NCBI GenBank assembly: GCA_026419785.1
Contig: JAODTK010005918.1
Coordinates: forward strand, 1 to 64,000
Source of the DNA: Sclerodactyla briareus
Lineage: Eukaryota > Echinodermata > Holothuroidea > Dendrochirotida > Sclerodactylidae
DNA: 64,000 nt
Direction of reading: 5' to 3'
In this document: piece after piece, positions 6,022 through 34,991 of the stretch
How the letters are laid out: each line of letters starts with the position of its first letter
How positions within the stretch are numbered: position 1 is the stretch's first letter
Position numbers and translations under genes: made by a program
The notes under the pieces: model-generated
Told to the model about the DNA's origin: nothing
What the model saw: only the letters and a program-made list of their open reading frames with translations
Databases searched by the model: none

Positions 6022-6024
<3 letters not shown>
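4601..6024. other. Unassigned sequence
   Basis: No supported exon, RNA or repeat was recognised. Confidence 0.4.
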
Positions 6025-6061
<37 letters not shown>

Positions 6062-6067
6062 ACACAC
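6025..6067. repeat. (CA)n microsatellite
   Basis: About twenty CA units are followed by a C-rich CACACC region to about 6104. The Val/Cys and Thr/His open frames over it are artefacts of the repeat. Confidence 0.95.
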
Positions 6068-7066: not shown

Positions 7067-7253
7067 GCATCCTTCCGATCTTCACGGTCTACTCTCAAGG
7101 GCTACTTCATCGCTGGCGGGCACATGGTATGTGGCCCGTAGGAGCCTCGCATCTCGCTAGAGTTAACATCGCAGTGAAGTGAACATTTCATTGGCTGGGC
7201 GGGATCCGGGCCGCTGGAGGAATTGCAAGCGGGGCCCTTCGAAAGTTCTGAAT
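7067..7253 (+). CDS. SLC5 exon: TM1-TM2 region with sugar-site Asn/His/Glu
   Basis: The acceptor is a T-rich tract ending CAG (7064-7066) and the donor is GTGAGT at 7254. The first frame reads through [11 protein letters not shown], the family's FFLAGRSMVWWP segment. The following bases still spell GAS, an LASNIGS-like stretch, [13 protein letters not shown] and FE when small indels are allowed; a G is missing in the WWP codons near 7131, and more indels occur near 7150-7200. In SGLT1 this segment carries the Asn, His and Glu that contact sugar; all three appear to be present, though they are read across frame breaks. The exon lies 640 bp before the next. The preceding exon, encoding the N-terminus and first helix, was not found upstream. 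Confidence 0.82.
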
Positions 7254-10200
7254 GTGAGTTCATCAACCTATGAGTTACATATGGGCCCTTCATATGACAC
7301 GAACGGGTGGTACCGTGGTACGAAGACTAAAACGGTTTTAAATTAGTCGTGTCAGTGTCTTGGGTCCTGTCAATTATTGTTTTCAGCCCGCGGATCTTGT
7401 CGTAAAAATTCCTGACTATGTGAATGAAAATAAAAAGTTTTCTCGTGGTACAGGAATGAAACACTTTTCTAAACACTCTTTTGTCTTCATAACATTCAAC
7501 AATGAAGCACACCATACTTTAATGGATTAAATACACCACGTTTAGAATATAAAGCTATGTTTACCATCTAATTTAAATACGTCTCTACAGTGATATAAAA
7601 GGGTTATAGGAAGGGCGAAGCCACGTGTTCAAAGTAGTGTGTGTGTGTGTGTGGGGGGGGGGGGGGGTCAGAGCAACCAGGAGGTCCAAAGCAGTAATGA
7701 GCAATGTGTGGGTGTGGAAAAAGATATGGAGGCCGGCTGAAAAGTTTGTAAGGGGGGGGGGGATGGCACGACGACCCACGATGTATAAGTACACGGTCCC
7801 TGGATATGTGTGTTTACTTAAAAACTCCATACGAATATGTTCTCCCTTTCAAACTCAGACTGAATATACAGTTGTGCTCATTGTTTTTCACAGGCGATGA
7901 TTGTACTCGTTTTTCTGGGCTGGTACTTCCTCCCCGTGTACCTCTCATCGAAGGTAGGACTCCAGTCATGCTTTTAATAAACTCTTCCTATTGGCTTCTT
8001 GTATGGGGAGTAGTGGTAATCTGTTTAAAGGGCGCTATCTCTCGTCTCCCTACACCCTGTCAATAATGAACGGTGTATTATCGTCTCGTCTCCCTACACC
8101 CTGCCAATAATGAACGGTGTATTATCGTCTCGTCTCCCTACACCCTGGCAATAATGAACGGTTCATTATCGTCTCGTCTCCATACACCCTGCCAATAATG
8201 AACGGTTTATATCGTCTCGTATCCCTACACCCTGCCAATAATGAACGGTTTATTATCGTCTCGTCTCCATACACCCTGCCAATAATGAACGGTTTATTAT
8301 CGTCTCGTCTCCATACACCCTGCCAATAATGAACGGTTTATTATCGTCTCGTCTCCATACACCCTGCCAATAATGAACGGTTTATTATCGTCTCGTCTCC
8401 CTACACCCTGGCAATAATGAACGGTTTATTATCGTCTCGTCTTCATACACCCTGCCAATAATGAACGGTTTATTATCGTCTCGTCTCCATACACCCTGCC
8501 AATAATGAACGGTGTAGTATCGTCTCGTCTCGTCTCCCTACACCATGCCAATAATGAACGGTGGTCATTCACATGACGTTACGAGAAAAACAAAAACATC
8601 TCACGGTATACCGTTTGCTAGTTGCCTAATACCAGATTATGACTTTCAAGTCGTTCATCGACTTCCATATCCTTCAACATGGTGTTAAGCGGTAAGAAGT
8701 GAATCCATGAGTTCTAACAGAGAATGGTTAACAAAGAGTTCGAATCCCAGTCGGGTGAATCCAGAAGGTGCCTGCTGGCTGTTGCTTTCTCGATGGTCTC
8801 TCAGCATAAACTATTTGAGTATGGAAAATAAGGGGTAACTCACTGCACTCCGATCACATATTTTTGCACAATATTGTTCCAATAGACAAATACAAATAGG
8901 TTCGATTTTTTTTTAAATATTTTTAATTGTTGAACAATTTCTTTCAGCGTTGCTGGTATGCACCGTAATTCAGACAGTATGACTGGTCGACATACTAGAG
9001 TGATGAAGTATTTGCAGTTATGCAGTGAAGAATTATTATATGTTTTGCATGAGAACCATTGACGTGGCTGTGTTCGCCCCCCCCCCCTCCCCCAAAACGT
9101 GTGATAGACGTTATAGGGGCAAATTGATTGCGGTCTAGAGTATGTCAAGTACGACATTGGGTGTGTTTGCGTTTGTTTGTACTAACTTGCCGGAGTTGAT
9201 TTCCTCTGCTGATTTTTAGCCAAATTTCTGGTAATTTGATTGACAATATCATGAACAAAATACATCTGGATAAATGGTTTGCAGGATGTTGATTCTGTAA
9301 ACTATTTCCTCCGAGAATGCGTAGCTTAAATCACTCACCTGATGAGGCGACAAGTAATCGGTATGTCTCTCGTATGTAGGACGCGGTATTAATGCCTCCT
9401 TGTACCGTTGTGTTGTTGCCATGTAACAGCTCCTTCTATTTTGCAATGATTCTGCACCCACGGAACCTGTCTCCATCTTTACAAATCGAATCCAAGCATA
9501 TGATAACCAATCACACGTCCCATGTTCACGTTAATTTGGCCTTCATGAGACTATAGAAACTTAGTACGGAATCCTACGTTAAGCTACGATCCTCAGTGCT
9601 TCTGCGTATTGGGGCGTCTGCAATACGTAATTATTAAGGTAAACTTACACCCATTTTTTTTCTAATGCCATTAACAAGATAGGAGTTATCTAAATTCTCG
9701 TAGTTGTTGCAAACGCATTTATCTGTTTCTACCTAAAATCACCAGCCGCAACTCTGAATCAGCTGCCGCAACTCTGAATCAGCTGCCGCCACTCTGAATC
9801 AGCTTCCGCCACTCTGACATCACTGCCGCCACTCTGAATCAGCTGCCGCCACTCTGAACACTGCGCCACTCTGAATCGCTGCCGCCACTACTGAATCAGC
9901 TGCCGCCTCTGAATATCTGCCGCACTCTGATCAGGCTGCGCGCCACTCTGAATCCGAGCTGTCTGCTGAGACTGCCTGCCACACTCTGAATCACTGGGCC
10001 TGAGCCACTCTGAATCACTGCCGCCACTCGATCAGTGCCGCACTGCTGAATCAGCTGCGCGTGCCACTCTTGAATCAGCTGCCGCCACGACTTGACCAGC
10101 TGCCTCGCCACACCATACCTAGAATCAACATCAAGCTTGCCAGTGCGGCCTACTGAATCAGCTGTGCGGCTCGCGATCTGGCCACTTACTTTGAATCACG

Positions 10201-13200
10201 CTCGCCGCCACCTGAATCCGACAGTGCCGGCCACTCCTGAATCAGCTGCTCCGCCACTCTGAAGTCATCGTGCCCGCCACTCTGAATCAGCTGTCGATTA
10301 TTCTCAGAAAAATCAGAATGATCAATCTACACACATTCCCTATCAATCTGATACGAAACACTGCTTCACATAAAGCTCTTACGCCCTACCTCAGGCCTAT
10401 ACCGTATATAAGAGGCCAAGACGCTTTCAATCATATCCAGGAAATCAAAATTTTTTATCAGTCGCTGACTTCGGCGTTTGGCTGATAGTCGAAACTGGAA
10501 AGATCCTTTCGGCGTTTCCTGAGCGTATCAGAATGGGGCTGTGTCATTGAGCCAGAAATCGCAGTTGACCAGTGGCAGAATGCGTCTTCTTTTTAGAGCA
10601 CAATCGCGAGCCTCCGAGTCGTTTATTTCATAATCTTCATTCATCTTCAATATTGTCAGTTTACTTTACTATGCCCACATCCAAGGTCACACCCCTTTTA
10701 ATTGTGTGTTGTTGATAACAGCGTTTTAAACTATTCAGCGCTCCGAGGCGCGCACCCGCAATACACCGTAACATCTCGCGGTTGTGTCAAACCGATATAG
10801 TTAGCACGACTATCGCGCCGACTAAAGTTTGCCAACCCAGGATCGATAGATACGGGTTCCCATCATCGTCGTGCTATACGAAAAGATCAGGAATAATAGT
10901 GCCTGTTGCCCTACTCGATGGGCGCTCAGCATAAGAGACTGGAGAGCAAATGACAACCGGGTAAGCAATTTTCATGTTGTCGTCTGCGTGTTATGATTCT
11001 ACCTCACTCTAGTACCGCGCCCCCCCCCAAAAAAAACAAAAAAAAAAAAAAATCAATACAGGTTTGGCACTTTCGCGGGCCTCCAACGGTTCGAACTTTT
11101 GCTCGGCAATTTTCGCCGCCCCATGTGACATAACTATGAGAACTTTCTTTGTGACAACAGTTACTGGAACCAGTAGCCTATTTACCAGGGGTCAGGGGAA
11201 TAGTGCTCCCCCAACAGGCTCAAATGGATAGAGCGACCTGAAACTATCGGAAAGGTTACCAATGAGGCAAACGGTGATGATAGAGGAAGATGGGAAAGAA
11301 GAAAAGTGGAGTAGATATGGCGCATGCATGCACACAAAGGACATTGGAAACAAGAGGGAAAGCCTGGCATGATGGCCGCCGTCACAAGTGGAATCCCCCA
11401 TACCGCTCTCCCCTATGACGCTGGCGCTGCTACGCAGGTCCCTCGAAACAAGGTTGGGGGGGGGGGGGGAATCAGTGAAAATGAGCAATTCTACGGATCA
11501 GGGGAACCTTTCTGTCATCCTGCAAGAAATCCTCTCAAGTTAATGATCCTATGCAGATACGGAATACTCACATTTTGCTGTTCTGTCAAGCCACTGTGAT
11601 GTTCGTTTAAAGTATTCGTTATATTTAACAACAGTGTACACAATGCCAGAGTATCTCCGTAAGCGATATGGCGGCCAGCGAATCCGTGTCTACCTGGCTG
11701 TTCTAGCTCTCTTGCTCTCTGTGCTCACGAAGATCTCCGTAGTATTATAAATATATATTTCTGTAACTACTCCATTCGTGCATTTGCTCACACCTATTTG
11801 GTTCCATTTCATGTACATATACTTCGTGCTGCATTTGTTGATACCGGTTTAGTGTGGATGAATAATCGTGTGCTTCAAAATATGAAACTTTTCTACTTTT
11901 CTAATTTATAGCCCTTTTATCATGACATACCTTTGCAGTTTTCTTGTGCTTGTGTAGGCACCGTCTGTTTTTTTTTTTTTGAACGCATCAACAAGTCGGG
12001 GTTTCATTAATTCCCGTTGGGTATGTTACGTTCCACAAGTCAAATTGGCTCAATCCTCCCATTTTCCAATGTTACTATTTCCCGGGGGGGAGAACTGGCC
12101 ACTTATCGTATCTCGCCGAAACAATAGCATTTTGTGCTTCTCTCCCCCAGAGAATCTATACACCACATTTCCACTCGACAAAGCCTTTTGGTTTACCAAA
12201 ATTGGCCTAATATCTGTATTTTACAGTTTCCCCACATCCCACTCAAATCGGATTTTGGCATTCTCCCTATAAGCAGATACGGAAGCTACATACCACATTT
12301 CAACTTATCAACTGATATTTGACTTATCGTATAACCCTAGATTTCTATACTTTGACTTATGTTGACCTCGGTTGACCATTGTCCTGACCCGGGACCGGAA
12401 GATAATAGTGTTCATCTACTCATTATGGGGAACCCACAAACCAATTATGCGCTTTCATCCATTCATATGAGACTAATCAACGTGTCACATCCATATACAC
12501 ACACATACACGTGCCAATTGACTCTCCACTTATTCCGTTGCACAGTTTTTTGTGCTCACATGCTTTTCTTACATTTGACCGTTTGCTGACCTTTGTGACT
12601 TGGACTTACCCCAACGATAGGGATCGTCCCCTCCCCACATAGAACTCTTCATGCCATTGAAGTATTGCTCTCTACATTTTTCCTCAACAATTAAATCGTG
12701 CTCACAAGTTGTTTCGACCTCTACTTGACCTTTAATGATTTCAGATGACCTCCCTCAAAACTATACTGTTTTTCTCATTATACCTGTAAGCCTGATGTTT
12801 GAGTTGGAATGAATGGATGTTCTTTTTTCTAGATATCTTGGCTCACAAGGGGCGTCCATATACACGCCCACCCCCGAAAAACTAATGCGTGGACTGCTTG
12901 TTGCTTTTGCCTAAGACGTGTGCATAATGTCTTTTTTTTCCCCAGGTCGAATACAATCAGGTCATCTCAGGAATGTAGCGCTGGACTGTCTATGATGGAT
13001 TTTGACTTAAGGAAAACTTCAACGACCTTGTGGAGCAATAACTCGGCGGTTTATCATCCTTGGGTATAGTAACCCGCGAAAGGCGAAATTTCGCCCTCGG
13101 GGAAAACTACGAAAAGCTTAGCTTCGCAACGATTACCCAACTCTGCAATAATGTGTGCGGGATTTTTCCTTTGGGTATTTGAAAGATAGAGAAAACTTTT

Positions 13201-16200
13201 GTAGTGTAAGGAAATTGTGAATCTGTTTCTTTCACACATGCCATTTCATATGGGCTTGGGGTACAATAGATGCATGACAAGTTAAACGCGTATTACATTC
13301 GATATTTGCGTAGCTACTATTGATTGCTTAAAACATGAACTAAATCACTGTGTATTACTTGTGTGTGTTGTTTACTATTTCGAACCTTTGAAAATGGACG
13401 AATATCTCTTAGGTTTCCGTTACTACATGGGCCCAGTATATATCTATATATATATATTTATATATACATATATATATATATATTATATATATATAATATA
13501 TAATATATATATATATATATATATTAATATATATAATTATATATATATAATTGATATATATATATATTATATATATAAATGGTATATTTGCTTCCTTTTC
13601 CCATTAATTCCTATTAGTTCTTATTCCATCCTTGTACAAAATCTTCCAAAGACTGTATCTTTTATCACAGGATGAATATGTTTGCCGAGCTCTGTTCGTG
13701 CAGCAGGCTTGGGTGGAATCTCTATTGTGCTAGCATCCTCCTCTCCTCCCTCACAGCGATATATACCGCACGGTAGAACAATGACGGCCTCTCTTGCCAA
13801 TGTCTTTTCAAAAATAAGTAAAGAGACGGGACTGTCCCCCATAGAATGAACACCTTAAATATAAGCATCGAACCGTTCCTGGGAACGTCCACGTTTCCGA
13901 GTGAGTGGCCAAGCAGGGATAGGGTTGGGCAATGTCACTGACGGGGAAGAAGGTGGGGAGGGCCCTAGCATCCATGCTCCCCATGCATGAACCTTCATGA
14001 ATGCATGAAATGCATGAATGACCATGAACCAATACCCTACCAGGTTTGACCAACTATCTTTTTGGCTTTTCATCCTCTTTCTTTTACATTTTCCCCTTCC
14101 TCTCATATATTCCTTTTTTTTGTCCCAGGTGGGGGGGATGGGGACCTCCCCGTCCCCCGCCTGACCAGGAATGACGTTTGCGTGAAATATAATCATTCAA
14201 CTAAATGGTGGGTGTTTTCACTTAAACTCATGTGAAACAAGTCTCGCGAAATGTGCAATCATTATGTATGTCTAGGTGACTGCAGGTTCAAAACAAAGAT
14301 TATAGTGAATTAATCAGGTTCGAACAAATGATGTGGAGTGCTATTTGTGAGTGTTGTTAGTTCTTCTCCAATTAGTTTGAATTTCGCAATATTAACAAAG
14401 GTCATAAACTGACAACACACGTTTTGTCTATCGACCTTCCGTTTCTTTCTCCTGCCGTCCACTCCATTATTATATCAACGTTATCTCAACAAAAATAAGA
14501 TGCTGGAAAAATCTATTGTCAGTGAAATATTTGGGGTGCTGCCACTCTAATACCACTCAATAACACTTACCCAGGACCCAGTCATTCCCTTTATTTCTCT
14601 TTCCCTTCTGTAGTAGAGGATACAAAAACACAATGATACGTTTGAAATGACAGGTCGAATTAGCATCTTGGCTATCGTTGAGTATGTCCTCAGGGTACCG
14701 AGTGACTAAGAACAACCCTTTTTGAAGTTAGCACTTGGCTGTTCATAAGACGGCTAACGAGTAAGTAAGCCTCATCCTACCAGTATCACCCCGACTGCGG
14801 TCTTAGAAGAGATCATAAATTACAAATTCAAGCTACCCAGTGAATGTTGTTGTAGAATATAGGTTGAACGGATAAGCCCTTCACTTCAACGGTTCCACAA
14901 TGTCCATTTTTTTAACAATCTTGGTATAGCCTTACACCATATATGCACATGGTTGTCACTTTTACTTTTATGAGAAACAGTCAAACGGCGCCACAAAACC
15001 AGCGGATAAGCTTGACTTGGAAATGGACCTCCCTTGAGTGGACATATGTGTAGAACGTGTCTGCAGCGTTGGTTTGCATGAAGGCCGTAGTTGAACGAAA
15101 AGAAGGGCTAAATGTCCTGGAAAGAAGTCAGAAGATTTCGTATTCGATTCTGAGCGTTTTTCCAGGCGTTCACGTCTCTGGCCGTAGGCAATCTCATGCA
15201 AAGGATTTTACGTGTGAAACAAAAAATTTGAGTAGTCGTGGGAACATCTCGAAGCAATATCCTCTTCGCCCACTGACCATTAACGTAGCCTGGTAGGGAA
15301 GTCCCCCCCCCCCCCCACCGCAAATCGGTATATCGAAGGCTTAGAAACGGGAAATGAAGGAGAAGGAAACGGGGAAACATGAGAGGACATAACGTAAAAG
15401 CCCATAACCAGTGAAGTTGGGAATAATTGGAATACTCGCGCACTAAGTGGGCCTCAAATGGTTCTGATGGTAATGAGGGTGAGGTACGAGCAAGCCCGCT
15501 TTTTTACGGCCCCTACAGAGTTAGAGGTCACCTATCCCCTCCCTCTCCCCTTTTCCCCGCGTCATTACTTCTGTGAGCCGAGGGAAACGCGAGAAGCAAT
15601 GCTACAACCGGAAAATCGTCTTGCCCCCTCTTACGTACTCGTCAAGGCTGGGGGCTACGGCGCCTGCCACTAGCCCCTTCCCCCCATGGCGGAAGCTACG
15701 TCATCCCATCTCATGGTCATTACCTAATCATTTTTTACACTGTTCCTCTCATTACTTACTCGATTCATCTTCAGTGGTCTAGCTGCCGTGATTTCACACT
15801 GACGCTGCACAAAACGCATTATCTGATTGGTGCTATTTGCCTTCATCCTAATGATACTGTGTAAGTTCTTCTTTATTTCGAGTGAAAGAGGTTTTCTCTC
15901 ATATTATCGTTAATTTATAAAAGATAATAATTATATTTCCAACTGGGGGTGAAGTTACGAGATGCGATTACTGGCTACAGATTACGTCAGTCCACCTTTG
16001 ATTTTTGATTCGATTCGATTTATACGGATTCATGAGCCAATGAGGCAATCAAGAACCCTTGGCTGTATCGAAACTGGAAATGGCAAGATTCCTTCAAAAC
16101 GGTAAGACCGTTGGGAGGAACCAAACCGAAACGAGTGGGTGTTCAAAAGTGTGTCTAATATTGCAAAAAAAACCAAAGGCCATCTGAGGCGACCTGTGAA

Positions 16201-17634
16201 TCAAATGCAATCGCCAAATACAGGTCAGAAGACGCCACCATTGTGTCAGCCCTATCCTAAAATACCTTCACATGCCATACCCGAAGAGAGCAACCCTAGT
16301 CTCAGGTATCAATACATACAATCTCTTCCAGCTTATCTTTATACCTCCAAATGCCAAGTTGAGAAACACTTTGATTCTCAACTGCTCGACGGCTCTGAGA
16401 TTATCGCTACTGTTTTTTTTCCGCACTCTAACCGCGTATCCTGGAAAGACACTTAATCGGATACCCAAGCTAATCCCATCATCCCCACCCCGGCCGACAC
16501 CATGAATTGGGCAATACAACATGTGGTGTGCAAAGAGGACGCATTCCATTTCCAACATGTTCCCGCGCCCCCCACGAGGGGGACCTACCCTGGCCAGGGA
16601 TGGCTTCGGCATCACCGTCTCAGCGGTATGGTATTGGTGTACTGACGCAGGTATGAACGATCAACATCACAAGTCATCATGTCTCACCTTCCGTTCGTTC
16701 GTTCGTTCGCTTCCTTTTCGTCACGATCACTCATACTTCTAAACCGTACATGTGATCAGAGGTTTGAAATTTGGTGGTTAATGAAGCATGTCACTGACTA
16801 GCTGGTTACATTTTGTTTGCATAATCTGATTAGATTTTAATTTTACCTACACCCCATCGTCTCCCCACTCGTCCCATTGAACTCCTGTAAAGAGTTGTTT
16901 ACTTACTCCCTCGAGCTTGCAGTGCACGCATCAGGGTAGAAGGAGGGGGGGGACTGTTTAATTCGTCTGTCAATCACCTTCTATGAATGTAGGTGATGGC
17001 GAACTTTCCCACTTTTGTCCCAAGTGTGTTTCCATCCAAACACTGTTCACTTCTACACCGGCCTAGGAATGATTTGTGTTGGGTACACATGCAGTTTTGT
17101 TGGGTACAATATAGCTTAATACAGGCCCTAGGATGAGTTGTTGGTCCTTTGTGCTGGACACTGTTAGCAAAAATTAGGCTAATTTGGTAGACATGTTCCA
17201 AGCCTTCAAGGTTATGATAGAGGTCAGTAAAGGTCAATTAATGTACCAACAATAATGTGGATTGGAGAAGAACACGCAGTGTTTTTCTGCCACGGAATTG
17301 CCGTCCGCAGCTATCGAGAACGTTTGCGATCGACCTGCGCTTGTTTTATGGGTACTTGCGGTACATAGGTCGATACCGACCTTAGTCAGCTGCGTATCCT
17401 ACTCCATTGGCCCGTTTCCATGGCCGCGTCGGGCGGGCGGGCCGGCGGGGCCGTCACGAGGACAACGCGAGTCACCTGTTCCCATGCACGCGGTGGGCGG
17501 GCGTGGCGGTTTTCTTTTCCTCGGAATCACGCACCTAGTGTGTATACTGCGCTATATATTTTATCCTGATTATTTTGTGTTATTATTGTTGTTGTTGTGG
17601 TATTATTATTATTATTATTAATTATTATTAGTAG

Positions 17635-17666
<32 letters not shown>

Positions 17667-18758: not shown

Positions 18759-18799
<41 letters not shown>

Positions 18800-18852
18800 T
18801 AATAATAATAATATAATAATAATAATAATAATATAATAATAATATAATAATA

Positions 18853-18919
<67 letters not shown>

Positions 18920-21900
18920 AATTAATAACAATAATACATTTATACAGCGCTAAATACAACTCACGAAGAGCAACGATCTGAAGCGCTTACAAAGTAAAAC
19001 ATTAAAAAATGCCTGAGGGAAGAGAAAAAGCTTCAGTCGCGACTTGAAGAGGGGAAAGTGGCATGTATTTCTGTAGCAAGAGGAGGAGAATTCCAATCTA
19101 TCGATTCTCTCCACAGGTAATTGTCCAGCGTGCCCTTGCAGCGAAGAGCGTCTCTCACGCCAAGGGTGGATGTATCTTCGCCGCATTCTTGAAGACCCTT
19201 CCCCTGTTCCTAATCGTCATTCCGGAAGGATCAGCGTGTTCTATTCGTGGATGCGGGGCCTGCATTGATGAAGACGTCTGTATGGAAAATCTGTCAGCAC
19301 CCACCGGCTGTACAACATAGCATACCCGAAACTGGTCATCCATATTATGCCAAAAGTAGGTCGTTCTCTTCATCGGAAAAGTTACTCGAGTAGAGTACAA
19401 TTTAACAAATGAAAGTGAGAAAATGGTTATGAGCCGGTTTCCTTATTTTACTGCAGTGCCGTGTAACCAAATTGCATCTTTCCTAACAACGATCAACACC
19501 GTCTCAATCATTTCAACATCACGTCACACATCACACATCACATTCTAACCGAGCGGCTGCAAGTTGGTATTAGCGTCGGCTTCCACGGGCGGACCGGGGT
19601 TCGTATTATCCCGGTCGGGTTCATACCAAAGACTTAAAAAATGTCACTGTTGCCTTCTCACTGGAGTCAGCCAAGGGAGCAAGGGACAAACAAGGGTAGG
19701 CAATTTGCAAAGTGCCGTCTGAGTGTGATTACCCCCCACACCCGCATTGGGTACCGCCCAAAGAGGCATTGCCTTATTCGTGTACTTGGTGAGGGATTCG
19801 CAGCTATCAATAGGTACAGTATCAGGTCTGCCTCCTTTGCTGGGCCGTGGAATACGAAACGATCCTTGCTGGGAAGTAGCCTATACCATACCAAAAAGAA
19901 AGAAATATTACCCCGACCATCGTCATCACATTAATTTTTCATCATCTTTGCTATCATCATCATCATCACCATGGTCATCTTCATAATCGGAGCCATCATC
20001 GTTATCATCATTAGTAAATCAGCATGAAATCGCGTCATTATCATACCCACATAGTGGCGATAAAATCAACTCCATCAACGCAGCCATTATTATAAGTAGA
20101 TATGTTTCCTTACTTTACTGTCATAAACAATTGCCTTTTTCGTTACCTCAATCGCAGTCATGATGCCCATCGAAATTACCATCATTATCACCATCATGGC
20201 CCATCTTCCCGGCATTTTATCATTGAAAACAAAAACAATCATCAACATCGTCGTCAACATCATCATTATCATCTTTGTTGTCGCCATCATCAGCGATATC
20301 ACCTGTCATCACATTCATCTTTCATCATCTCAACATCATCCTCACCGTGATAATCTCCATTATCGATATCATCATTGTTATCATCATTATCATCAACATT
20401 ATCTCTCTTTCATCACCAAATATGTACTAGTATCATCAACAAATTGTACTGGTGGCACAGTCTCTGCTGCATCCACGCCATATCACTATTTAGATCTTAT
20501 CACTCGTCTGTATCATCATTATCATCATCATCGCCATCGTCGTCGATACCATCAGCTATCATTGCCTTCCATCGCCCAATTAGGTGATTCACAATAGAAC
20601 GTTCACAGCCTTATCGTGAGGCCTTATCAGCGATATATTTACTAGTTGTAATAAAATAAAAATGAGTGTTCCCCTTAGCCACATTGATTAATGGTGGTTC
20701 TTTTCGCCAGTCACACTAAGGAATGAAACAAGGGATTGTACAAGCTACCGAGTAACGAAATTAACAGTCGCGGGCGCTGCTAGGTAAAAATTGTCAAACC
20801 GTATTTTATTCAGATCAAGACCTTCATGAGCAACAACTGCCCCATCTTTATCCTTGAAACATAAAATAATATGTTGTATTCGTATCAATTCCTGCAGTGT
20901 CTCTCGTCAGTCGTCATCGTGTTTCATGTAGCCAAGCCTCTCAGTTGCGCCACCTATTAAATTTCTTTTCCGTTTTCAGGTTTGAAAGGGCTGATGCTTG
21001 CTGTTGTCATGAGTGGTTTGATGAGCTCATTAACCTCCATCTTCAACAGCAGTAGTACCATCTTCACCATCGATGTCTGGAAGAGGATTCGACCTAATGC
21101 TAGCGAGACGGAGATGATGGTTGTTGGAAGGTGAGAGCAGGGGACATTTTTGGGAGTTCGGTTAGTAGAGAAACTGTATTTGGGCCTAATTTCACAAGAT
21201 AGTCCAATATATCGCGAAACTGGTATCTGGCAAAATCAAAGAGGCGACAGCAGCTGGAGTGACCCCACCCGTTTCCCCAGTAATTGCATGTCGGCCAGGT
21301 GTTATTGCAGCGTGTAATATGGGGTGAAGTATTCAATCTCACAGATCACGAACCCGTCCTCGTTTTTTGATTACAAAGAGAAACCGACTCATCGCGGTGT
21401 TCAGGTTGCTACTTTTTCATCTTCGAGGACGCTGGGAACTTTAGGCAGAATCGAATTGTTTGGTAAGACATGGCGCAATTTCCTTTATTTTTGCCAAACA
21501 CTGTGATACTATGACACTGTGCAACTGTGCGATAAAATTGGTAAAAGGAGATACATTTTGCGTTATTCAATTTCATTGGTCCTATGGCTGAACCTGGGTC
21601 CTGGAATAAAAAATCCTGAACACCCCCAATACCCTCTATACCAAGAGGATCATTTACATGTTCCCTACTTTCGAAGGAATCATGCAAATGCCATATGAAT
21701 TTAACCAAAAACGTTGTTAAAACGGTATGAAAAAGTTTCGTTTAATGTGTTGCGGAGATCAATTTGGCGTGTAATAATGATTTTATAGGAAAGAACATGT
21801 TCGCAACATTCATCCGGTATAACAACGATATGCACATTAAAACGTGAAACAAGTCAAGTACATTAGAAACGTCATAACAAAGTTTTAATAACTCACATTA

Positions 21901-27900: not shown

Positions 27901-29889
27901 TCTTGTTGGTTCCATAAACAGCAGCAGACGCAACACATATATTGGTATGATGACTTTCGTACACGTTGTGCATACTATAGCGAGTTGTAATTCTAGGACG
28001 GACGAGTTACAGCATCGTGTGTTCCGACGAAATCACTGAAGACAAGTGATTCACTGGATAGAATATTGTGCAAGTTTCGTAATTGCCGCTTTAGAGTTAT
28101 AATTGTTCTGGTGAATTCTCCCTATTCTTACCTCCTCCGTGGGAAGCAGTTGGACTGACGTTCTCCCACGGTTATATTGATCATGATCGATGTTAACGAT
28201 GATATAATACCCACTCTTTGTCGAACTTGTGCGATTCCTTACGCTTACTGTGTTGACTATTAGTTGTGTTGCCGGGACAGACACGACAGACTAGACTGAT
28301 CACCGAATACCACTAGGATACTCCACTCGTGTCCGCCTAACGGCTGGGTAGAAATATCCAGTGACACGCTTGCCACATCAACGTCTGTGCATTATTGGGA
28401 GAGAGATCATCTCTAAACCATCGTTTCTCTCTTGCAGAGTGTTCGTCTTGATTATGGTGGCTATCAGTATTCTGTGGATCCCGATTATCCAGGCAGCTCA
28501 GGGAGGCCCGTCTCTTTGACTACATCCAGGCCATCACGAGCTACCTGGCCCCTCCCATCTGTGCCGTCTTCGTCTTAGCTGTGTCGTGGGGACGGATAAA
28601 CGAAGAAGTGAGTTCAGTCTTCGGGACTCATATCGAACTACGAGCACCATGGGCTATTTCTTGCGTAGCTGGACCCTCTTAATTCATGGACATTTTTTTA
28701 CGAACAATTGGGTTTGACCCTTCCCTGTCCTAGCACGATGAGGGCATTGGTAGCGAGAGTGTACATCGATTACGTATGCAGTTACCTATATCTGTATATG
28801 AAACCTTCTGTTTTTAGTTCCTGTCAATCGGTATCACGTGACGAAAACTGAGGTCAAACTCTTTTTTCGTGTATTTAGGTGCGTGCGGCGCACGTTGTGG
28901 GGGGGGGGTGTGTAAGTGTGTGTGAGTGTGACACTTTCTTCTTAGCAGCTTTCTCCGAAACGGCAGACCGATTCCACTTGTGTTGCTGTTGGTTTCAGTG
29001 AAACCTATTGAATGCGGTCTATCGTCGCGTTGGTCCTGAAATGTTTAAAATTAGGGAATGGGTCCTTGGAAGACAAATCATTTGTCTAATTTGCCTAAGG
29101 TTAGTTAGGCAATGTAACTCACGTGTCCAGCAAAAACTTAATACTCCTTTGATAGACATGGTTAACAGTCAGTCCCAATGGATTATAAATTTGTCACTGA
29201 ATAGTGATATTTATAGCTAGCGCCCTTAGCGGCTGGCCAACCCTATACACTTCTATATGTTTCAAATTTTGTGATATTATTCGCTCTCTTTCTTCCGACC
29301 TCGAAGATTTTTGTGATTGAAACATGCTTTATGCAAAATGCAAAATAAAAACCATGATCGCTAAAAAGGAGCGACTAGCGGTTCCTGAAGTTGTTGTCGC
29401 TAATTTTTCTTGACATGGGTATATAGTAACATGAATGAGAGAAGAGATAGCTGAGACAATGAAGAGAAAATAGACGTTGATTAAGAGGAACCTCCCGCGG
29501 CTATAAATATACCATCGTAATATATTTTTCCACCTTTTCCGATGCAACGTAACATTGTATTTTACTCTTATCTTTTCCATCACCAGGGTGCCTTCTGGGG
29601 GTTGATGTTTGGACTAACTTCTAAGGTATGATCCGTATGTCCTCGATTTCGTCTTCCTGCTCCCCAGTGCGGACAGGCGGACCTAAGGCCTGGTATCCTG
29701 GCCAGATGGCATTTCCTCTATTTTGGAATCTTCCTCTTTGGTGTCGTCTGCATCTTTACTATCATCGTCAGCCTTCTGACAGAACCACTCCCTGAACGTT
29801 AATGGGGAGTATCGATACCGCCGCGATTGTGAATAGCTCACGATGTCGCTCTGCGATCTCAAAGATAGATAGATAGATAGATAGATAGC

Positions 29890-29920
<31 letters not shown>

Positions 29921-32900
29921 CTAGATAGATAGATAGACAGACAAATCAACTTTATTGCATCCAGTATGAAAATTACATGCTTGCAGATAAAATACAGTGA
30001 GATCTAGAAACGATAAAATACAACAAACAAATAAATAATAGAGCAATGGGAAAAAAATCAAACATATAAAATCGGACATAAGAATGTGAACACATACACG
30101 TCGTGACAATGCGCGCGAAACAACACAGAGTGGCAAGAGACGGTAACGTATAAAAGTTTAAAATCAATTAGTAAGTATGAGAGATGAACCCAATGGATAA
30201 ACGAAGGCAAGAGATTACCGAGTAAAAGATGAATTGAAGATTGTGACCGATTGCCCCACGAAAATCAAAGGGTAATGATCCGTTTGAGCTCTAGGTGGTC
30301 TCCGCTACGAGGGATAATGCAACCGACGAATCTGTATGTAAGGGGTGGTCCGGGTCTCAAAGAACTGGGTGAAGCTTATCTCTAAGTCTAGGATTCCATA
30401 GATGCGTATGCGTATGTGAAAAAAATCGCCAATTTACGTCATCTGAGCGGGGGCCAGAGTCTGAATATGTCCTATTTAGTTTGAAAAGATAAATATTGGT
30501 TCCATGGAGGCGAATAATTATAAATAAAGACAAACCAACACGAATAGGTGAAATAAGCATATGTACCAATGCGTATACGGATTCTTACCACCGCGAATGA
30601 ATTATATGGAATATCTTCCTTAAAAAGCCAATCAATGAAAATATGCATGGACTGCTGCATTTGTATGGTCTTTTCGCATACACTCATAGTGTTTTCTCTT
30701 CTGAGATAAACGTTCGGTTTCGTAAATAAGTGTTTTTTCACATCCAGCCCGGATACGCATACGCATCTATGGAATCCCAGCCTAATGCGACTTTCGTACT
30801 TCTCGGCAACCGTGGTCGTATCTTCTAAAACTTTCATGCATGTCTTATTCGTGTTGCCAACCCACGAAGTCATATAGTATGCCCAAACACTTGCGAATTA
30901 TAGAGTTATAAAATACAAGTAAAATGTTCTGGTTCACGTTGAAAGAGTCCAAAGATGAATTGTCCGTGGTCTAGTCCGTGAGCAGTACTTGCGGTCTTCC
31001 AGGCGTTTGGAAACATAATGGATAAGTCCATCCCACTTCAGCTGATCATCAATATTACACCAGGTATTCGTATTCACTAACCCACTCCACTGCTTTATTT
31101 TCGATAAGAACTGGTACAGGCACCACAATGTTTACTCTACAAAAGTCTAAAATCAGTACCTTCGTCTTAGTGACATTCAAACGGAGGTAGGCCTAGTTCC
31201 TCTTACATTCTTCAACAAAATTAACAATCTGTTTACGGTAGCTTCTGTCATCGTCGTTTCTAATCAGACCAACGAGAGCAGTGTTCATCGCGAACTTGAC
31301 CAGCGACTGTTTGCTCGGTGAGGAACGTACCCGGAGGTATATGAAGTTAACGGGAACAAAGCTAAAGCAGTGCCCTATGGCGCTCTTGTGCTACAGTTGA
31401 TGATGTCATATGTAACACCACGGCCGATACGTACAATGCGAAAAAATAATGAGTAGTATAAAATCCATAGAATGTGGTACACTGAGTCAAGAAACATATT
31501 ACGAGCAGAGACTTTACCGAGTCCTCTAGATGAGAGTGTGAACAAAATTGCATCGTCAGTGTTGCGTCCCTTCTTGTATGCAAACTGGAGATCATTTGTT
31601 AGATTGACGGTCAGCTTCCTGATATGTTGCAATACAAATCGTTCACAAGATTTCCCATGGTAGCTATGGAGCTATGGTGATGGTTGGGTACCGGAATGAT
31701 GCAGGATTGTTCCATAGACGAGGGATGCACTGGGTCTTAAAGCCCAAGTTGAAAATATAGGTGAAGGATATTGACATTGATGGTTACATTTTCTCAAAAC
31801 CCGGCGTAAGAGTTGTCCGGTCCAGCTGACTTTGATGTGTTATCTCGGCGTACTTATCCACTGTGATGTTTAGAAATGGCGCGGACTCCTCGAGAATACG
31901 GTCGACCTCATCCGTAAAATCATGGCAATCGAACCTGTTATAAAATGAGTTCAATCGATTTGCATGGGTCTGGAAGGATTCTGGTATCAAGCGATGCTTC
32001 GAGCTACTCTTAGTATAACCGCCCATCAAACGCATGCCAGTCCATACATCCCTGATGTTGTTTGTTATTTTCCTGATATACCTTCTGTAAGCGTCTTTCT
32101 CTAGTCTAATCACAGCGTTAATCTCCTTCTGAATCAGTTTCAAGTCATGTTTATTACTTGGTGGCGTCAACAAACATTTTCCAGACCTTCCGATCGAGAC
32201 AGTCTTTTTAAGGTTGTTCCAGGGTTATAAATCCGCCGTTGTTGATAGAAATTACCTGCGGCTTTTCACGCTGGACGAAAGGCTTGTATCATGGTAACAG
32301 GACTACGAGGTCATGGTGGGCTTCACTAAGCTTAGTAAACGGGGCTGATACATTAGCAGCGTCTTTGATGTTGGTGTAACAAAGGTCCAATGTCGGTTCA
32401 CCACGTGTTGGACAATTCACGTGTTGATCAATCTGTAATCTAGGTTTTTCAGTGACTCCATGTCAAAGTCTCCATTGACCACAACAATTAGGCACACGGG
32501 GGCTTTAAGCTTCCAGACCATCTCTATTCATCAAGAATTGAGGAAAAATCATGAGATAGCTTTCTTCGGTTGAAAAAAAAAATCGGAAGATTCGGAACGT
32601 AATTAACTGATATGGAACAGCCTCAAATGGCTTAGGAAGTGTCATTGCCTGCTATATAGGGGTCTTTCAGGCTCAACATTGTCTCACACGACCCGCGCCA
32701 GCCAGTGGGCGACCGCTACGGCCTAAAATAGTCGGTCGCAGCCCTCCCGAAATTAGTACGCCCCCACTGCTAAGATTATGGCTACGCCACTGTGCGTTCT
32801 AACTATTTTCTTTAACCCCATCCGGGTATTTGAGAAATTGACGCCCACCTGCCCCCATTCAGTATCGGTCTGGATCCGCCCTTGACAACCAGTAGTTGTT

Positions 32901-34991
32901 CACACTACTATCCTGGTTGAAAGTGCACACACCCCAATTATGTCAGAGTTTACATTGGAGCGCTATACGAACATTAGAAAATTATTGTGTCATCAGCAAG
33001 ATAACTCATTCGCTAATTAATTCATAGTGGATTGGTCGCTCGCAAGCCTATAGCCAAAGGAAATTTCCCTTCATTTCCTGGCGTTTCTGCGTTATATTTG
33101 CCGATAGAAGTATTCATCAGGCCTCATTGCCCCTGTTCACAGACCAAAGGTCTAACCTTCTGGACCAGGAAAGAACAGCTGGAGGGCAAGGGAGAGTCCT
33201 CTGAGATGACCCGTCAGGATAAACATGATCAACCACGAGAAGATGTACAGGAGGATGAAGGTAAATATAGTGGTGTATGGTCCTTTATCTCATTTTCTCC
33301 TCCTTTCTCAAGAATCAACAGGGAATGGGTAGGAAACAAACAAACATCGCAGTAAGGGAAGTGGGCCAGTTGTCCGTCACTGGAGAAGGCGCATAAGGCG
33401 CCGCTGAACAATCAGCAATCCCATGCGTGAAAAGAAGAAACACAGAAAAGACGAGGCCAATTCGGTTGTGATAAACATGCGATTATATAGACTCCCTTGT
33501 GTAAATCTGGACTTTTCTAATCGAACAATCATGGAGAGCAGTAGCAAATCATGGAGAAGTATCTACTTATTTCAGGTTCCTCTACTTCCTCTATTTGCTT
33601 TTTAAAGATGAAATTAAATTTATGTTCAGCAATCACATGTTCCGAATATGATACTGATTCTGTTAACAAAAAATGACGAGGAGAGTAGAAAATAAACTTG
33701 AAAATTGAAAAAAGGCAGAAAATCAGAAATAAAAAAGAGGAGAAGAAAAATGGAGAAATAGAATAGGGAGGAGAGGAAAACGAATACACTGTGAAACGGG
33801 AAACGGAAGAGGTCCGTCCAATGACTAAGAACAAGTATGTTCCCTTAGGAGGGCGGGAGAATAGAAGAGCGGTATCAGTGTCCCTGTGCATCACAGGTCC
33901 CGGGGTTCGAATTCCAGCCGATCAGCACCGGGCGTTTTTCCAGAAGTGGCTGCATTTGCAGTTCGACTGGCTGTTTTCCTGGTTTAGGTTCCTGTCCTGC
34001 GTTGACATGGCTTGGTAATTTCGGGGGGTTGTTTCGGGGGCACTTGCAATAGGTCTCGTCGGTCGGCTGTGAGCAGTCGCGTCGCACATCTTCCGCTCCT
34101 CCAGGTTCTGAGAAAATGGTCAGGTCCTGGAGTTCACTGATCGTCCGTCGGATGGGGACGTAAAATTGCGGTCCGGGAGCGGGATTAGTGTCACTCCCTG
34201 CTCGATATCATCTGAGCACTAGTCGAAGAGAAGGCCCCCGGAACATTTGTCGCCGGTGCTCATCCACGATCAAAAATTCGGTTAGGGTTCCACGATGTGT
34301 CAAATTGGCTTCCTGAACCCGTAGCAATCAAATCAAATCAAAATCAATCAGGTTACACCGCCTCTCCCGACGCGTAGGCCTTTTGAATACGCCAATAGTC
34401 TGCGATACTGAAACTGGGGCCTCGGCAAATCCGTGACAAGATGTCGAAATCAGGTGAAGATTGTCCTTCTCCCCCCTGACTGGGAAACCAAGCCATTCAA
34501 GACATGAACAGAAAGTAATCAAAAGGGTGCAATCGTCCGTCGAAACTTTTTTTTTTTGGGGGGGGGTGGTCCAAAGCAAGTTGGGGGTCCGAAGCATTGA
34601 TGGGAATGTTCTTGTGAGGAAGAATACCGTTATGCGTGGATACACTCATGGACCTTGCGGGGGTCCCATCAGCAGTTGCCCTCTTGAGTTATATACCATC
34701 AGACCGAGTTGTGTTGGCCACTCGAGTCAGTGCTGTTCGATCGAAATTTATCATTCCTCGTTCATTCTTGCCTCACCCCCTTATTTCAGAAGTCACCTTA
34801 CGGGAGGAAAGCTCACCGACTGGATCTGCGGGACCGGAAAGACAGAGGAACACGAACCGACTGAGGAGGAGATCGCTGCATTGGAGAAACTATCCAACCT
34901 GGAAGAATCTCGCTTGGAGACGATCATTCTCAACCTGGCTGCTATAATCATGGTTGCCTGCAGTATTTTCCTATGGGCGTTTTTCGCTTAG
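7067..34991 (+). CDS. SLC5-family sodium/sugar cotransporter (SGLT-like), 12 exons, first exon not found
   Basis: This is a multi-exon gene for a plasma-membrane Na+/solute symporter of the SLC5 (SSF) family, which uses the sodium gradient to import sugars. Exons: 7067-7253, 7894-7953, 11635-11738, 13671-13772, 15775-15860, about 16449-16650, 19117-19355, 20980-21130, 28438-28607, 29587-29797, 33143-33260 and 34790-34991. Visible family motifs in order are [76 protein letters not shown] and a final hydrophobic helix ending AFFA. Residues matching SGLT1 sugar ligands (Tyr-Trp before CTD, Lys in FLKTLP, Gln in DYIQ) are present. Exon lengths sum to about 1832 nt; adding one missing N-terminal exon gives the usual SGLT size. 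Several exons carry one-base indels. Which SLC5 member it is, and its exact substrate, cannot be decided here; SGLT1/4/5-like is the best guess. Confidence 0.9.
7637..7667. repeat. (GT)n followed by a poly-G run
   Basis: A GT microsatellite of about 8 units runs directly into about 15 G. It lies in the intron after the first recognised SLC5 exon. A second G run is at 7752-7762. Confidence 0.9.
7894..7953 (+). CDS. SLC5 exon: short helix exon
   Basis: This exon is exactly 60 nt, clean and in phase, bounded by CAG (7891-7893) and the donor GTAGGA at 7954. It encodes 20 residues reading [20 protein letters not shown], which matches the SGLT helix with consensus ALVLVVVLGWLFVPIYI. It joins in phase to the end of the previous exon, giving the family's E-x-N-A junction. 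There is no indel here, which supports real selection on the sequence. Confidence 0.9.
8034..8570. repeat. 44-bp minisatellite, about 12 copies
   Basis: The unit contains CGTCTCGTCTCC, TACACCCTGCCAATAATGAA and CGGTTTATTAT. Copies are highly alike, differing at a few fixed positions (CCATAC or CCCTAC, GGTTTA or GGTGTA). The last copies are irregular. It lies in the intron between the SLC5 exons at 7894 and 11635. Confidence 0.95.
8735..8800 (+). repeat. tRNA-derived SINE remnant
   Basis: It has a pol III B-box-like word GAGTTCGAATCCC followed by CAGTCGGGT and a TGCTGGCTGTTGCTTTCTC segment. The same downstream order recurs at 19595-19665, showing a shared family. The A box is weak. Confidence 0.55.
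8801..9741. other. Intron sequence, nothing recognised
   Basis: It contains a C run at about 9077-9086 and no coding similarity. Confidence 0.4.
9742..10292. repeat. 20-bp minisatellite with scrambled centre
   Basis: The unit is CTGCCGCCACTCTGAATCAG, about 27 copies. The first copies (9742-9850) and the last ones (10240-10292) are near perfect, while the middle has indels in almost every unit. This looks like uncorrected noisy reads spanning a repeat. Confidence 0.9.
10293..11634. other. Intron sequence with homopolymer tracts
   Basis: A C/A-rich tract lies at about 11020-11052 and a G run at 11457-11469. No exon was recognised. Confidence 0.4.
11635..11738 (+). CDS. SLC5 exon: [11 protein letters not shown] motif
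   Basis: The exon follows the acceptor AACAACAG and ends at the donor GTAGTA (11739). It encodes [13 protein letters not shown], then [14 protein letters not shown] and SVLTKIS, one of the best conserved stretches of SGLT proteins. The reading is clean inside the exon, but one base is missing at its 5' edge: the previous exon ends in phase 0 and this one starts with two bases of the expected Val codon. The intron before it is 3.7 kb and contains both large minisatellites. Confidence 0.92.
13435..13578. repeat. Long TA-rich tract
   Basis: About 140 bp consist almost only of T and A, mainly alternating TA, and can fold back on themselves. It lies 92 bp before an SLC5 exon. Confidence 0.95.
13671..13772 (+). 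CDS. SLC5 exon: helix with ALFVQQ...GWNLY...LTAIYT
   Basis: The acceptor is TTTATCACAG (to 13670) and the donor is GTAGAA at 13773. After allowing a missing G near 13687 and a small indel at the LGW codons, the exon encodes an MFAGALFVQQ-like segment, then GWNLY and [13 protein letters not shown]. This matches the SGLT stretch FAGAIFINLALGLNLYLAI...ITALYT. It ends in phase 2, and the two trailing bases join the first base of the next exon to make the codon before GLAAV. The exon lies 90 bp after a long TA tract. Confidence 0.85.
13773..15774. other. Intron sequence, nothing recognised
   Basis: This 2.0-kb intron has a small CATGAATGCATGAA-type repeat near 13985-14020 and a C run at 15302-15316 but no supported gene. 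Confidence 0.4.
15775..15860 (+). CDS. SLC5 exon: GLAAVIYTD segment
   Basis: The acceptor is CATCTTCAG (to 15774) and the donor is GTAAGT at 15861. It encodes GLAAVI, then TDA-x-Q and a hydrophobic IGAI stretch, matching the SGLT segment GLAAVIYTDTLQTVIMLVG. The frame breaks at the Tyr codon (an extra C near 15794) and again around 15809. The phase agrees with the previous exon. The identification rests on the exact GLAAVI match, the splice sites and the position in order. Confidence 0.8.
16449..16650 (+). CDS. SLC5 exon: ...EDAFHF...LPWPG...VWYWCTD
   Basis: The 3' end is firm (donor GTATGA at 16651); the 5' end is approximate because the acceptor near 16430-16460 is ambiguous. Readable family segments across frames are an NTTCGV-like loop, EDAFHF, a GDLPWPG-like turn and [14 protein letters not shown]. 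SGLTs have ...SFHIFRDPLTGDLPWPG...LWYWCTDQ at this place. The Tyr-Trp pair of the sugar site is intact. At least three indels are present, including an extra G just before the last CAG codon. The next exon continues exactly with VIVQR. Confidence 0.83.
16692..16709. repeat. Short (CGTT)n tract
   Basis: About four CGTT units lie just after the SLC5 exon ending at 16650. Confidence 0.85.
17404..18061. mobile_element. Non-autonomous inverted-repeat element with GC-rich arms
   Basis: Left arm 17404-17510 and right arm 17956-18061 are imperfect inverted repeats. Each arm has two GC boxes spaced about 70-77 bp apart, sharing CCGTTTCCATG, CCATGCACGCGG and GGGCGGGCGG. The interior holds an ATT microsatellite at about 17578-17692. 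No transposase frame is present. The outer ends and target duplication are not clear. Confidence 0.65.
17578..17692. repeat. (ATT)n microsatellite
   Basis: Interrupted TTA/ATT units. It is complementary in sequence to the (AAT)n tract at 18746-18928, so the two could pair over about 1.1 kb. Confidence 0.95.
18691..18744 (+). pseudogene. Truncated duplicate of the SLC5 [10 protein letters not shown] exon start
   Basis: A CAG acceptor-like site is followed by bases encoding [13 protein letters not shown] and LTK, clearly related in DNA and protein to the start of the true exon at 19117 ([16 protein letters not shown]) about 425 bp downstream. The similarity stops at an AAT microsatellite starting about 18746, so most of the exon is missing. 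One extra base near 18710 breaks the frame. It may be a relic of an exon duplication or of a tandem gene copy. It is unlikely to be used because no exon end follows. Confidence 0.7.
18746..18928. repeat. (AAT)n microsatellite
   Basis: Interrupted AAT units that start exactly where the duplicated exon fragment (18691-18744) loses similarity. Confidence 0.95.
18931..19060. repeat. Dispersed repeat with GCGCTAAATAC / AAGCGCTTACAAA words
   Basis: The sequence after the AAT tract carries ATTTATACAGCGCTAAATAC and GAAGCGCTTACAAAG. Words like these next to AAT tracts are typical of widespread metazoan repeats. This is judged from general recall only. Confidence 0.4.
19117..19355 (+). CDS. SLC5 exon: [10 protein letters not shown]...LKTLPLF...IAYPKLV
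   Basis: The exon follows CTCTCCACAG. It encodes [18 protein letters not shown], then [18 protein letters not shown] in one open frame. It then shifts frame after a lost or gained base around 19222-19236, and reads [32 protein letters not shown]. This corresponds to the SGLT loop with conserved cysteines (ACV...CTNIAYPTLVVELMP). The Lys of FLKTLP matches a SGLT1 sugar ligand. The donor reads GTAGGT at 19356, apparently with one exon G missing, because the next exon needs a phase-1 base to make Gly-Leu-Lys-Gly. Confidence 0.92.
19541..19665 (+). repeat. tRNA-derived SINE remnant
   Basis: An A-box-like ACCGAGCGGCTGCAAG at about 19548 and a B-box-like GGGGTTCGTATTATCCC at 19595-19611 are followed by GGTCGGGT and TGTTGCCTTCTC. 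The order matches the remnant at 8735. It is not a functional tRNA. Confidence 0.6.
19937..20560. repeat. Degenerate (ATC/CAT)n region
   Basis: About 600 bp are dominated by CAT/ATC triplets with interruptions. It produces open frames rich in His/Ser or Ile/Met (up to 145 codons at 20160-20597) that are not genes. Confidence 0.9.
20980..21130 (+). CDS. SLC5 exon: [20 protein letters not shown] (sodium-site helix)
   Basis: This 151-nt exon is free of indels. It lies between CGTTTTCAG and the donor GTGAGA at 21131. It encodes [50 protein letters not shown], a near-textbook SGLT segment. In SGLT1 the paired serines of LMSSLTS help hold sodium at the Na2 site, and both are kept; an earlier position that is Ser in SGLT1 appears as Gly here. 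A 7.3-kb intron follows, the longest in the gene. Confidence 0.97.
21131..25499. other. First part of the 7.3-kb SLC5 intron
   Basis: No exon was recognised. The 115-codon frame at 23970-24317 has no family resemblance. A C run lies at about 24700-24714, next to a GTGCGTTGCAC hairpin (about 24752). Confidence 0.4.
25363..25391 (-). repeat. Copy of the CGGAGCGCCACC hairpin repeat
   Basis: It reads CCGCGCCAACC-GATGGTGGCGCTCC on the plus strand, a near-palindrome. Other copies are at about 26981-27012 (same strand) and 47587, 62316 and 63860 (opposite strand). A G run precedes it at 25321-25332. Confidence 0.75.
25500..25728 (+). pseudogene. hAT-family transposase C-terminal (dimerisation) fragment
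   Basis: Readable pieces are [10 protein letters not shown] in one frame, then [20 protein letters not shown] and [20 protein letters not shown] in another, ending at a TAA. This is the pattern of the hAT C-terminal dimerisation region (SASSERSFSKLK...NRLRSTMSQERLNDL), seen in transposons and TTF- or MYM-type zinc-finger host proteins derived from them. One frame shift separates the two pieces near 25520. No upstream transposase core was recognised, so it is a fragment lying within an SLC5 intron. Confidence 0.7.
26110..27060. repeat. G-rich repeat patch with hairpin copies
   Basis: It contains a G run at 26110-26123, a C/A run near 26170-26187, a GC hairpin ACGCGCTTCGCGCGCA near 26743, a copy of the CGCTCCGCGCCAACC repeat at about 26981-27012 and a C run at 27037-27049. 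It is a patch of dispersed repeats with no gene. Confidence 0.6.
27061..28437. other. Intron sequence, nothing recognised
   Basis: No supported feature was seen before the SLC5 exon at 28438. Confidence 0.4.
28438..28607 (+). CDS. SLC5 exon: [11 protein letters not shown]...[10 protein letters not shown]
   Basis: The acceptor is CTCTCTTGCAG and the donor is GTGAGT at 28608. It encodes [23 protein letters not shown], then [20 protein letters not shown] and [12 protein letters not shown]. One extra C in the run at about 28510 shifts the frame between QGG and LFDY. The Gln of DYIQ matches SGLT1 Gln457, a key sugar-binding residue, and the nearby Thr is also kept. It joins the previous exon in phase across an Arg codon. 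Confidence 0.95.
28800..29219. repeat. Short relative of the AGGTCA-rich repeat family
   Basis: It shares the plan GTGTGTGAGTGTGACACTTTC, AGCAG...CGAAACGGCA, then TTTGCC and a TTGATAGACATGGT-like segment with the repeats at 52.9-53.4, 55.4-55.7 and 58.4-58.5 kb. A GTGCGTGCGGCGCAC hairpin precedes a G run at about 28900. Confidence 0.5.
29587..29797 (+). CDS. SLC5 exon: [10 protein letters not shown]...YLYFGIFLF helix
   Basis: The acceptor is CATCACCAG. The exon starts in phase with [12 protein letters not shown]. After one or more indels near 29621-29680 it continues [21 protein letters not shown] and [20 protein letters not shown], then LTEPLPE, matching the SGLT helix and the following SLLTKPIP turn. 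A GTATGA at 29626 looks like a donor but coding similarity continues well past it. The likely donor is GTTAAT at 29798. The minus-strand LINE tail begins only about 65 bp downstream. Confidence 0.88.
29864..29940. repeat. (TAGA)n tract, LINE tail
   Basis: About eighteen TAGA units with two TAGC variants. They adjoin the AATAAA-bearing 3' end of the minus-strand LINE, as is usual for LINEs that end in a short microsatellite. Confidence 0.9.
30389..30779. mobile_element. Inverted-repeat insertion nested in the LINE
   Basis: A perfect 25-bp inverted repeat lies at 30391-30415 and 30753-30777 (GGATTCCATAGATGCGTATG plus CGTAT, and its complement). The LINE protein reading breaks at one end ([10 protein letters not shown]) and resumes at the other ([11 protein letters not shown]). 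So about 387 bp entered the LINE after it was formed. No transposase frame is inside. A target duplication could not be fixed. Confidence 0.7.
33143..33260 (+). CDS. SLC5 exon: LTFWTRKE and charged cytoplasmic-type loop
   Basis: It lies between the acceptor CTGTTCACAG and the donor GTAAAT at 33261. It encodes [20 protein letters not shown], then [18 protein letters not shown]. SGLTs have LTFWTR or LTWWTR followed by a long, poorly conserved, charged loop before the last helix, and this fits. The frame is open throughout, although the junction with the preceding exon needs a one-base change near 33151 to keep LTFWTR in phase. Confidence 0.85.
33867..33915 (+). repeat. tRNA-derived SINE remnant
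   Basis: An A-box-like AGAGCGGTATCAGTG and a B-box-like GGGGTTCGAATTCC at about 33902 are spaced as in a tRNA. No full cloverleaf forms. Confidence 0.5.
34790..34991 (+). CDS. SLC5 terminal exon: last helix and stop
   Basis: The acceptor is CTTATTTCAG and the stop is TAG at 34989-34991. The exon encodes [20 protein letters not shown], a Glu-rich stretch, then [20 protein letters not shown] and FLWAFFA. SGLTs end with the same plan: a Y/DW-x-CG motif, an acidic loop, and a last helix ending HAYFA. The first few codons need a small indel near 34800 to join the frame set by the previous exon. No AATAAA signal was seen in the few hundred bases after the stop. Confidence 0.93.

Follow-up and report, generated by a model that had tools for sequence, protein, structure and literature searches.

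It was asked whether an SGLT-type SLC5 gene, laid out as twelve colinear exons on the plus strand at 7067-34991 of the DNA studied, is a decaying pseudogene or a working gene whose reading frame was broken in the assembly. The stretch analysed (the window, 64,000 nucleotides) corresponds to bases 1-64000 of contig C3161 (303,833 bases), which belongs to a draft assembly of 319,486,128 bases in 3,171 contigs.

The sequence of human SGLT1, the aligned part of which agrees with PDB 7wmv, was fitted to the region 5-36 kb with a self-written dynamic-programming aligner that admits GT..AG introns in each of the three phases, as well as frameshifts limited to 1 or 2 bases, and that penalises stop codons and so tends to steer round them. 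The score was 1140; the controls reached 248 with the protein reversed, 219 with it shuffled once and 242 on the minus strand, and chance similarity of the exons was ruled out by them. The fit began at human residue 46 and followed the protein to its end through colinear exons with GT..AG introns, reaching a stop codon at 34989-34991. This frameshift-tolerant protein-to-genome alignment agrees with the earlier note, made from the letters of the window, in which an SGLT gene with ordered exons and splice sites had been proposed. The number of twelve exons given there was reached by adding the linker exon (exon 12 in Table 1), which is backed by its counterpart in a second gene on the same contig, paralog C (C3161:191074-191169, score 67 against 29-39 for six shuffles). 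The counterpart of exon 13 was found there as well (C3161:194718-194896, score 130 against 33-39 for six shuffles).

A Pfam search of the plus strand at 7.0-35.5 kb in single frames, with stops written as X, showed the SSF family in frame 2 (E 2.5e-16) and frame 3 (E 2.5e-13), at 60 and 50.1 bits; besides SSF, nothing but ATE_N (E 0.13, 13 bits, cut-off 27) matched this region and strand at E <= 1. The fit was also converted to a read-through protein, built with SGLT1 as guide and carrying an X at each break. This protein covered the whole of Pfam SSF PF00474 (profile 1-406 of 406, 314.3 bits, cut-off 22.8, E 1.5e-93) and matched TIGR00813 at 341.3 bits (cut-off 184). Among PDB chains, SGLT1 and SGLT2 made up the first five of nine rows, and vSGLT stood far below them (E 3.4e-51). 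By these matches the gene is assigned to the sodium:solute symporter family (PF00474/TIGR00813; SLC5), and among solved SLC5 members it is placed closest to the SGLT branch, the predicted C-terminal helix of the SGLTs being present in exon 13. An SGLT gene is expected in an animal; the family is known and the matter is ordinary.

Table 1. Exons of the SGLT-type gene and intronic tandem arrays in the window. Residue numbers are those of human SGLT1.
Feature	Position	Strand	Remarks
Exon 2, residues 46-104	7067..7253	+	most damaged exon, several small indels (by eye)
Exon 3, residues 105-124	7894..7953	+	frame open up to exon end
44-base tandem array, about 12 copies, regular	8036-8562		in the intron from 7953 to 11635 of the SGLT gene
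20-base tandem array, intronic	9741..10293	.	34 substituted, 51 inserted and 23 deleted bases relative to the unit
Exon 4, residues 125-159	11635..11738	+	clean frame
Exon 5, residues 160-194	13671..13772	+	several small indels (by eye)
Exon 6, residues 195 to about 220	15775..15860	+	several indels
Exon 7, to residue 295	16426..16650	+	several indels
Exon 8, residues 296-376	19117..19356	+	about 110 clean bases, then single-base deletions
Exon 9, residues 377-426	20980..21130	+	clean
Exon 10, residues 427-483	28438..28607	+	extra C near 28505; close to paralog C
Exon 11, residues 484-553	29587..29797	+	three frameshift steps in the fit, 29614-29640
Exon 12, linker preceding the last helix	33143..33260	+	by eye; missed by the SGLT1 fit
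Exon 13, last helix and stop TAG	34790..34991	+	SGLT1 fit and paralog C counterpart

Paralog C (C3161:163604-194896) comprises 13 exons, arranged as in the window gene. The two are similar in the linker and the last helix, whereas their synonymous sites are saturated outside one exon (pS 0.78), and because of this saturation paralog C is taken to be an old duplicate of the window gene. A partial third copy, copy B, was observed in inverted orientation at C3161:154186-157220 (minus), head-to-head with the segment 163604-173481 (plus) of paralog C. It holds the first exons only, with no later exons among the matches listed, and the main inverted matches in the flanks of the two are 75-80% identical with many gaps. 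With a dS of 0.22 and a dN/dS of 0.58 relative to paralog C (59 codons), copy B may be a dead fragment.

Some exon borders in Table 1 were settled with these copies or by eye. The end of exon 4 was adopted from copy B (the fit gives 11741), and its acceptor is one G short as compared with both other copies. For exon 6, where the fit had continued to 15908, a GTAAGT donor seen by eye was taken as the end, and the start of exon 7 was taken by eye from paralog C (fit start 16470); the acceptor placed there by eye is damaged.

Exon 1 was not found in positions 1-7120 of the window with human residues 1-48 (score 47 against 38-55 for eight shuffles) nor in positions 1-7066 with the exon-1 peptide of paralog C (score 28 against 26-34 for ten shuffles). 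In paralog C the candidate exon 1 lies at C3161:163604-163731 (score 69 against 45-59 for eight shuffles) and ends at a phase-0 GTGAGT donor, followed by an intron of about 6.6 kb; with its peptide, a search of the assembly at E <= 10 returned paralog C alone (the single candidate was scored). Since only 7,066 bases precede the first exon seen and the window begins at base 1 of the contig, exon 1 of the window gene is probably off the contig end. By comparison with paralog C the gene would have 13 exons, of which the window carries exons 2-13, and the description of it as complete-looking is therefore slightly too strong as regards exon 1, with the start codon and the first helix. The failure to find exon 1 anywhere in the assembly could also be expected if the window copy had died recently within an error-ridden assembly, a real lesion, or a few of them, lying among errors that mask them. 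This combination has no positive sign in its favour, and the contig end explains the lack of exon 1, the intron 1 of paralog C taking up nearly as much sequence as the window has upstream; it was judged very unlikely.

Fifteen positions of SGLT1, which serve the sugar, sodium and gate sites, were checked in the fit, and 12 of them were the same in the window gene. Those retained include N78, H83, Y290, W291, K321 and Q457, all residues of the sugar site. T287 is replaced by A and S389 by G, and E102 coincides with a break, a GAA being visible at 7241-7243 outside the fitted frame. The survival of key sugar- and sodium-site residues noted previously thus holds for most positions. Family membership and the conserved residues suggest that the product would couple the entry of sodium across a cell membrane to that of a sugar or another small solute of similar kind.

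The window gene contains 18 frame breaks in 484 codons. Of the 20 frameshift steps that the SGLT1 fit needed, 15 are one-base steps, in line with the predominance of one-base breaks reported before, and some of the steps may be fitting artefacts. The breaks are fairly evenly distributed for exon length (eye estimate), and it is not claimed that errors are confined to patches. Several indels fall in runs of 2-4 identical bases; the extra C in exon 10, absent from paralog C, is an example of the homopolymer break described earlier, and a G is missing from paralog C in the preceding exon. Breaks are equally dense in paralog C (17 in 481 codons), and copy B showed 6 frameshift steps in 134 codons. 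No in-frame stop was met in the fit of the window gene and two were met in that of paralog C. In exon alignments of two or three copies, none of the indels that could be placed by eye was common to the window gene and paralog C.

Housekeeping genes of the same assembly were broken too. In the three best gene loci among 27 listed actin matches, on C1260 and C2792, codons identical to human actin numbered 357 of 392, 317 of 347 and 258 of 298 (87-91%; adjacent pieces overlap slightly, so that a few codons are counted twice), and 6, 1 and 5 frameshift steps were required, one of which, situated at the end of an exon, is possibly an artefact of the fit. Weaker actin-like loci (C2088 and C2792:288-291 kb; 36-57% identity, most with internal stops) were left out. 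An actin about 90% identical to the human protein and carrying several frameshifts does not look like a decaying gene. The HSP70 exons at C2424:93105-95116, C2424:120302-123210 and C2424:19050-27144 showed 13, 3 and 16 frameshift steps in 277, 305 and 277 residues, respectively; these counts exclude the parts of the fits after 95116, before 120302 and after 27144, which seem spurious or were uncounted, and a C-terminal exon at 125295-125471 with one stop. Parts of a fit on C3110 and the fit of copy B below about 154 kb were likewise excluded. Internal stops occurred in one of seven tubulin and six of 14 HSP70 matches (table rows only). Across genes the density of breaks ranged from about 1 to 19 per kb, and that in the SGLT copies was about three times the actin mean.

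Real frame changes that are bypassed by programmed frameshifting at translation, or by editing, would account for a protein conserved in spite of its breaks. The break sites differ among the copies and the housekeeping genes, however, inspection by eye showed no site that they share, and indels also occur in three of the five noncoding tandem arrays measured, so that the probability of this explanation is close to nil. In the 44-base array, 16 substituted, 5 inserted and 2 deleted bases were counted in 527, an indel rate about that of the exons. Noise is much greater in the 20-base array, where indel bases (74) exceed substitutions (34), with no indels in its first 60 bases. Of three short arrays, one had 3 indel bases in 83, and the other two, the 22-base and AGAT arrays, had none (104 and 79 bases). 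All of these differences include natural variation among units.

The number of breaks was calibrated by simulation. A stand-in intact gene gave a mean of 0.8 frameshift steps (0-2 in five runs), and simulated indel rates of 1%, 1.5%, 2% and 3% gave 11.6, 16.6, 22.0 and 22.6 steps, so that 18 breaks correspond to about 1.5-2% indels in the window exons, with a loose upper bound, as the count levels off at 3%. Simulated decay under four settings, starting from the window protein and hence partly circular and only partly independent, gave 17.6-18.8 steps, scores of 472-861 (window 1050), identities of 0.392-0.475 (window 0.51) and 1.2-3.8 stops (window 0); the setting with 1% indels and 8% substitutions, at 17.6 steps, was set apart from the window gene solely by a score of 861, an identity of 0.475 and 1.2 stops.

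Substitutions were compared between the window gene and paralog C over 320 codons away from breaks. Differences at codon positions 1, 2 and 3 numbered 82, 54 and 173, and dS was 1.92, dN 0.234 and dN/dS 0.12. By this pattern and ratio, the pair has been mostly under purifying selection since the old duplication. Unshared departures from the human protein numbered 33 in the window gene (where paralog C agrees with human) and 20 in the reverse case. The excess could reflect a mild relaxation of the window gene; it is much smaller than expected from decay with so many indels, for which neutral substitution at 12%, for example, would amount by arithmetic to about 86 nonsynonymous changes per 320 codons.

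A true decaying pseudogene, in which the indels are real mutations, would have 18 breaks in 484 codons and a slight excess of changes of its own, as was observed for the window copy. Neutral decay with so many indels should also bring many more substitutions and nonsense codons. Neither relaxed selection nor a disablement specific to this gene was found: dN/dS, which if relaxed would have meant a pseudogene according to the earlier note, was low, the fit was free of in-frame stops, paralog C was broken at equal density, and three actin and three HSP70 genes were broken as well. All frameshift steps were of 1 or 2 bases, which speaks against decay only within what the aligner permits. Decay of the window copy was therefore judged extremely unlikely.

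Because paralog C, actin and HSP70 are all broken while the substitutions show purifying selection, the breaks are very probably errors of the assembly, and the preference for sequence error over decay expressed at the outset is borne out, also by the indels that the two paralogs do not share. We consider it very probable that the window carries an ordinary and probably functional animal SGLT-type gene, the frame of which would be broken by many small uncorrected indels of the draft assembly, at about 1.5-2% of exon bases here. Several of these putative errors lie in short one-base runs, as in unpolished long-read assemblies, and the assembly was presumably built from long reads. On sequence evidence we infer a sequencing cause for the breaks and a real gene that is open and expressed. 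Points that count against the assembly-error reading include the variation of break density by gene, the excess of 33 over 20 departures, the similar number of steps under simulated decay and the 22-base and AGAT arrays without indels.

One exon stands apart in the comparison of the paralogs. Exon 10 of the window gene and C3161:184113-184281 are 92% identical in DNA over bases 31-209 of the 241-base query, with a pS of 0.25 as compared with 0.78 in the remaining gene, and this exon looks like a gene-conversion tract in both. A tentative and rather unlikely extension is that two old SGLTs are maintained separately while conversion keeps the exon of residues 427-483, with the substrate-site helix around Q457, nearly identical. 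If so, two transporters of different properties would have one pore segment in common.

A second allele of the window gene elsewhere in the assembly was rejected on a search with two stretches: one matched only the window and the paralog C exon, and the other, apart from the window, gave no more than three short matches (33-70 bases). A search of the assembly for COX1 gave no match. Elsewhere in the assembly, another SLC5 gene, frame-broken and more distant from SGLT1, was observed at C3110:49930-54404, and SSF-family loci with open exon matches at C970:19733-20260 and C2420:300979-303582 (minus).

Pfam scans of the remaining plus strand and of the whole minus strand of the window at E <= 0.05 returned no family in two sets of 24 and 21 pieces, and one of 21 pieces in a third set showed an SH3_4 match (E 0.029). 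The searches for tRNAs and for Rfam families at the gathering score returned none in the window. An open reading frame at 31784-32224 (minus), without a Pfam match, has five other listed copies, 67-74% identical over parts, and resembles the part of a LINE preceding the reverse transcriptase. Three short direct repeats with a spacing of 12,554-12,574 bases (41256/53830, 41644/54215 and 42348/54902) were also observed, hinting at an old segmental duplication across 41256-54944.

Genes that appear broken or lost in this assembly should not be read as pseudogenes. Since even actin looks disabled here, counts of pseudogenes or of gene losses taken from this genome could be badly inflated. According to PMC12007338, read errors produce frameshifts and premature stops, so that intact genes resemble pseudogenes. 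The frame-broken genes of long-read assemblies described there are comparable to the genes studied here; that paper deals with small genomes, whereas the present assembly has 319 Mb. As for the transporter itself, human SGLT1 (SLC5A1; PDB 7wmv, also 7sl8 and 7sla) is colinear with the window gene over residues 47-664, the C-terminal helix included (E 1.5e-176), with 286 of 592 fitted codons identical, a comparison in which the SGLT1-guided read-through favours SGLT1. SGLT2 (SLC5A2; PDB 7vsi and 8hb0) matched the read-through protein over its full length (E 7.7e-161) with a score slightly below that of SGLT1, the subfamily comparison covering SGLT1, SGLT2 and the other solved SLC5 members.
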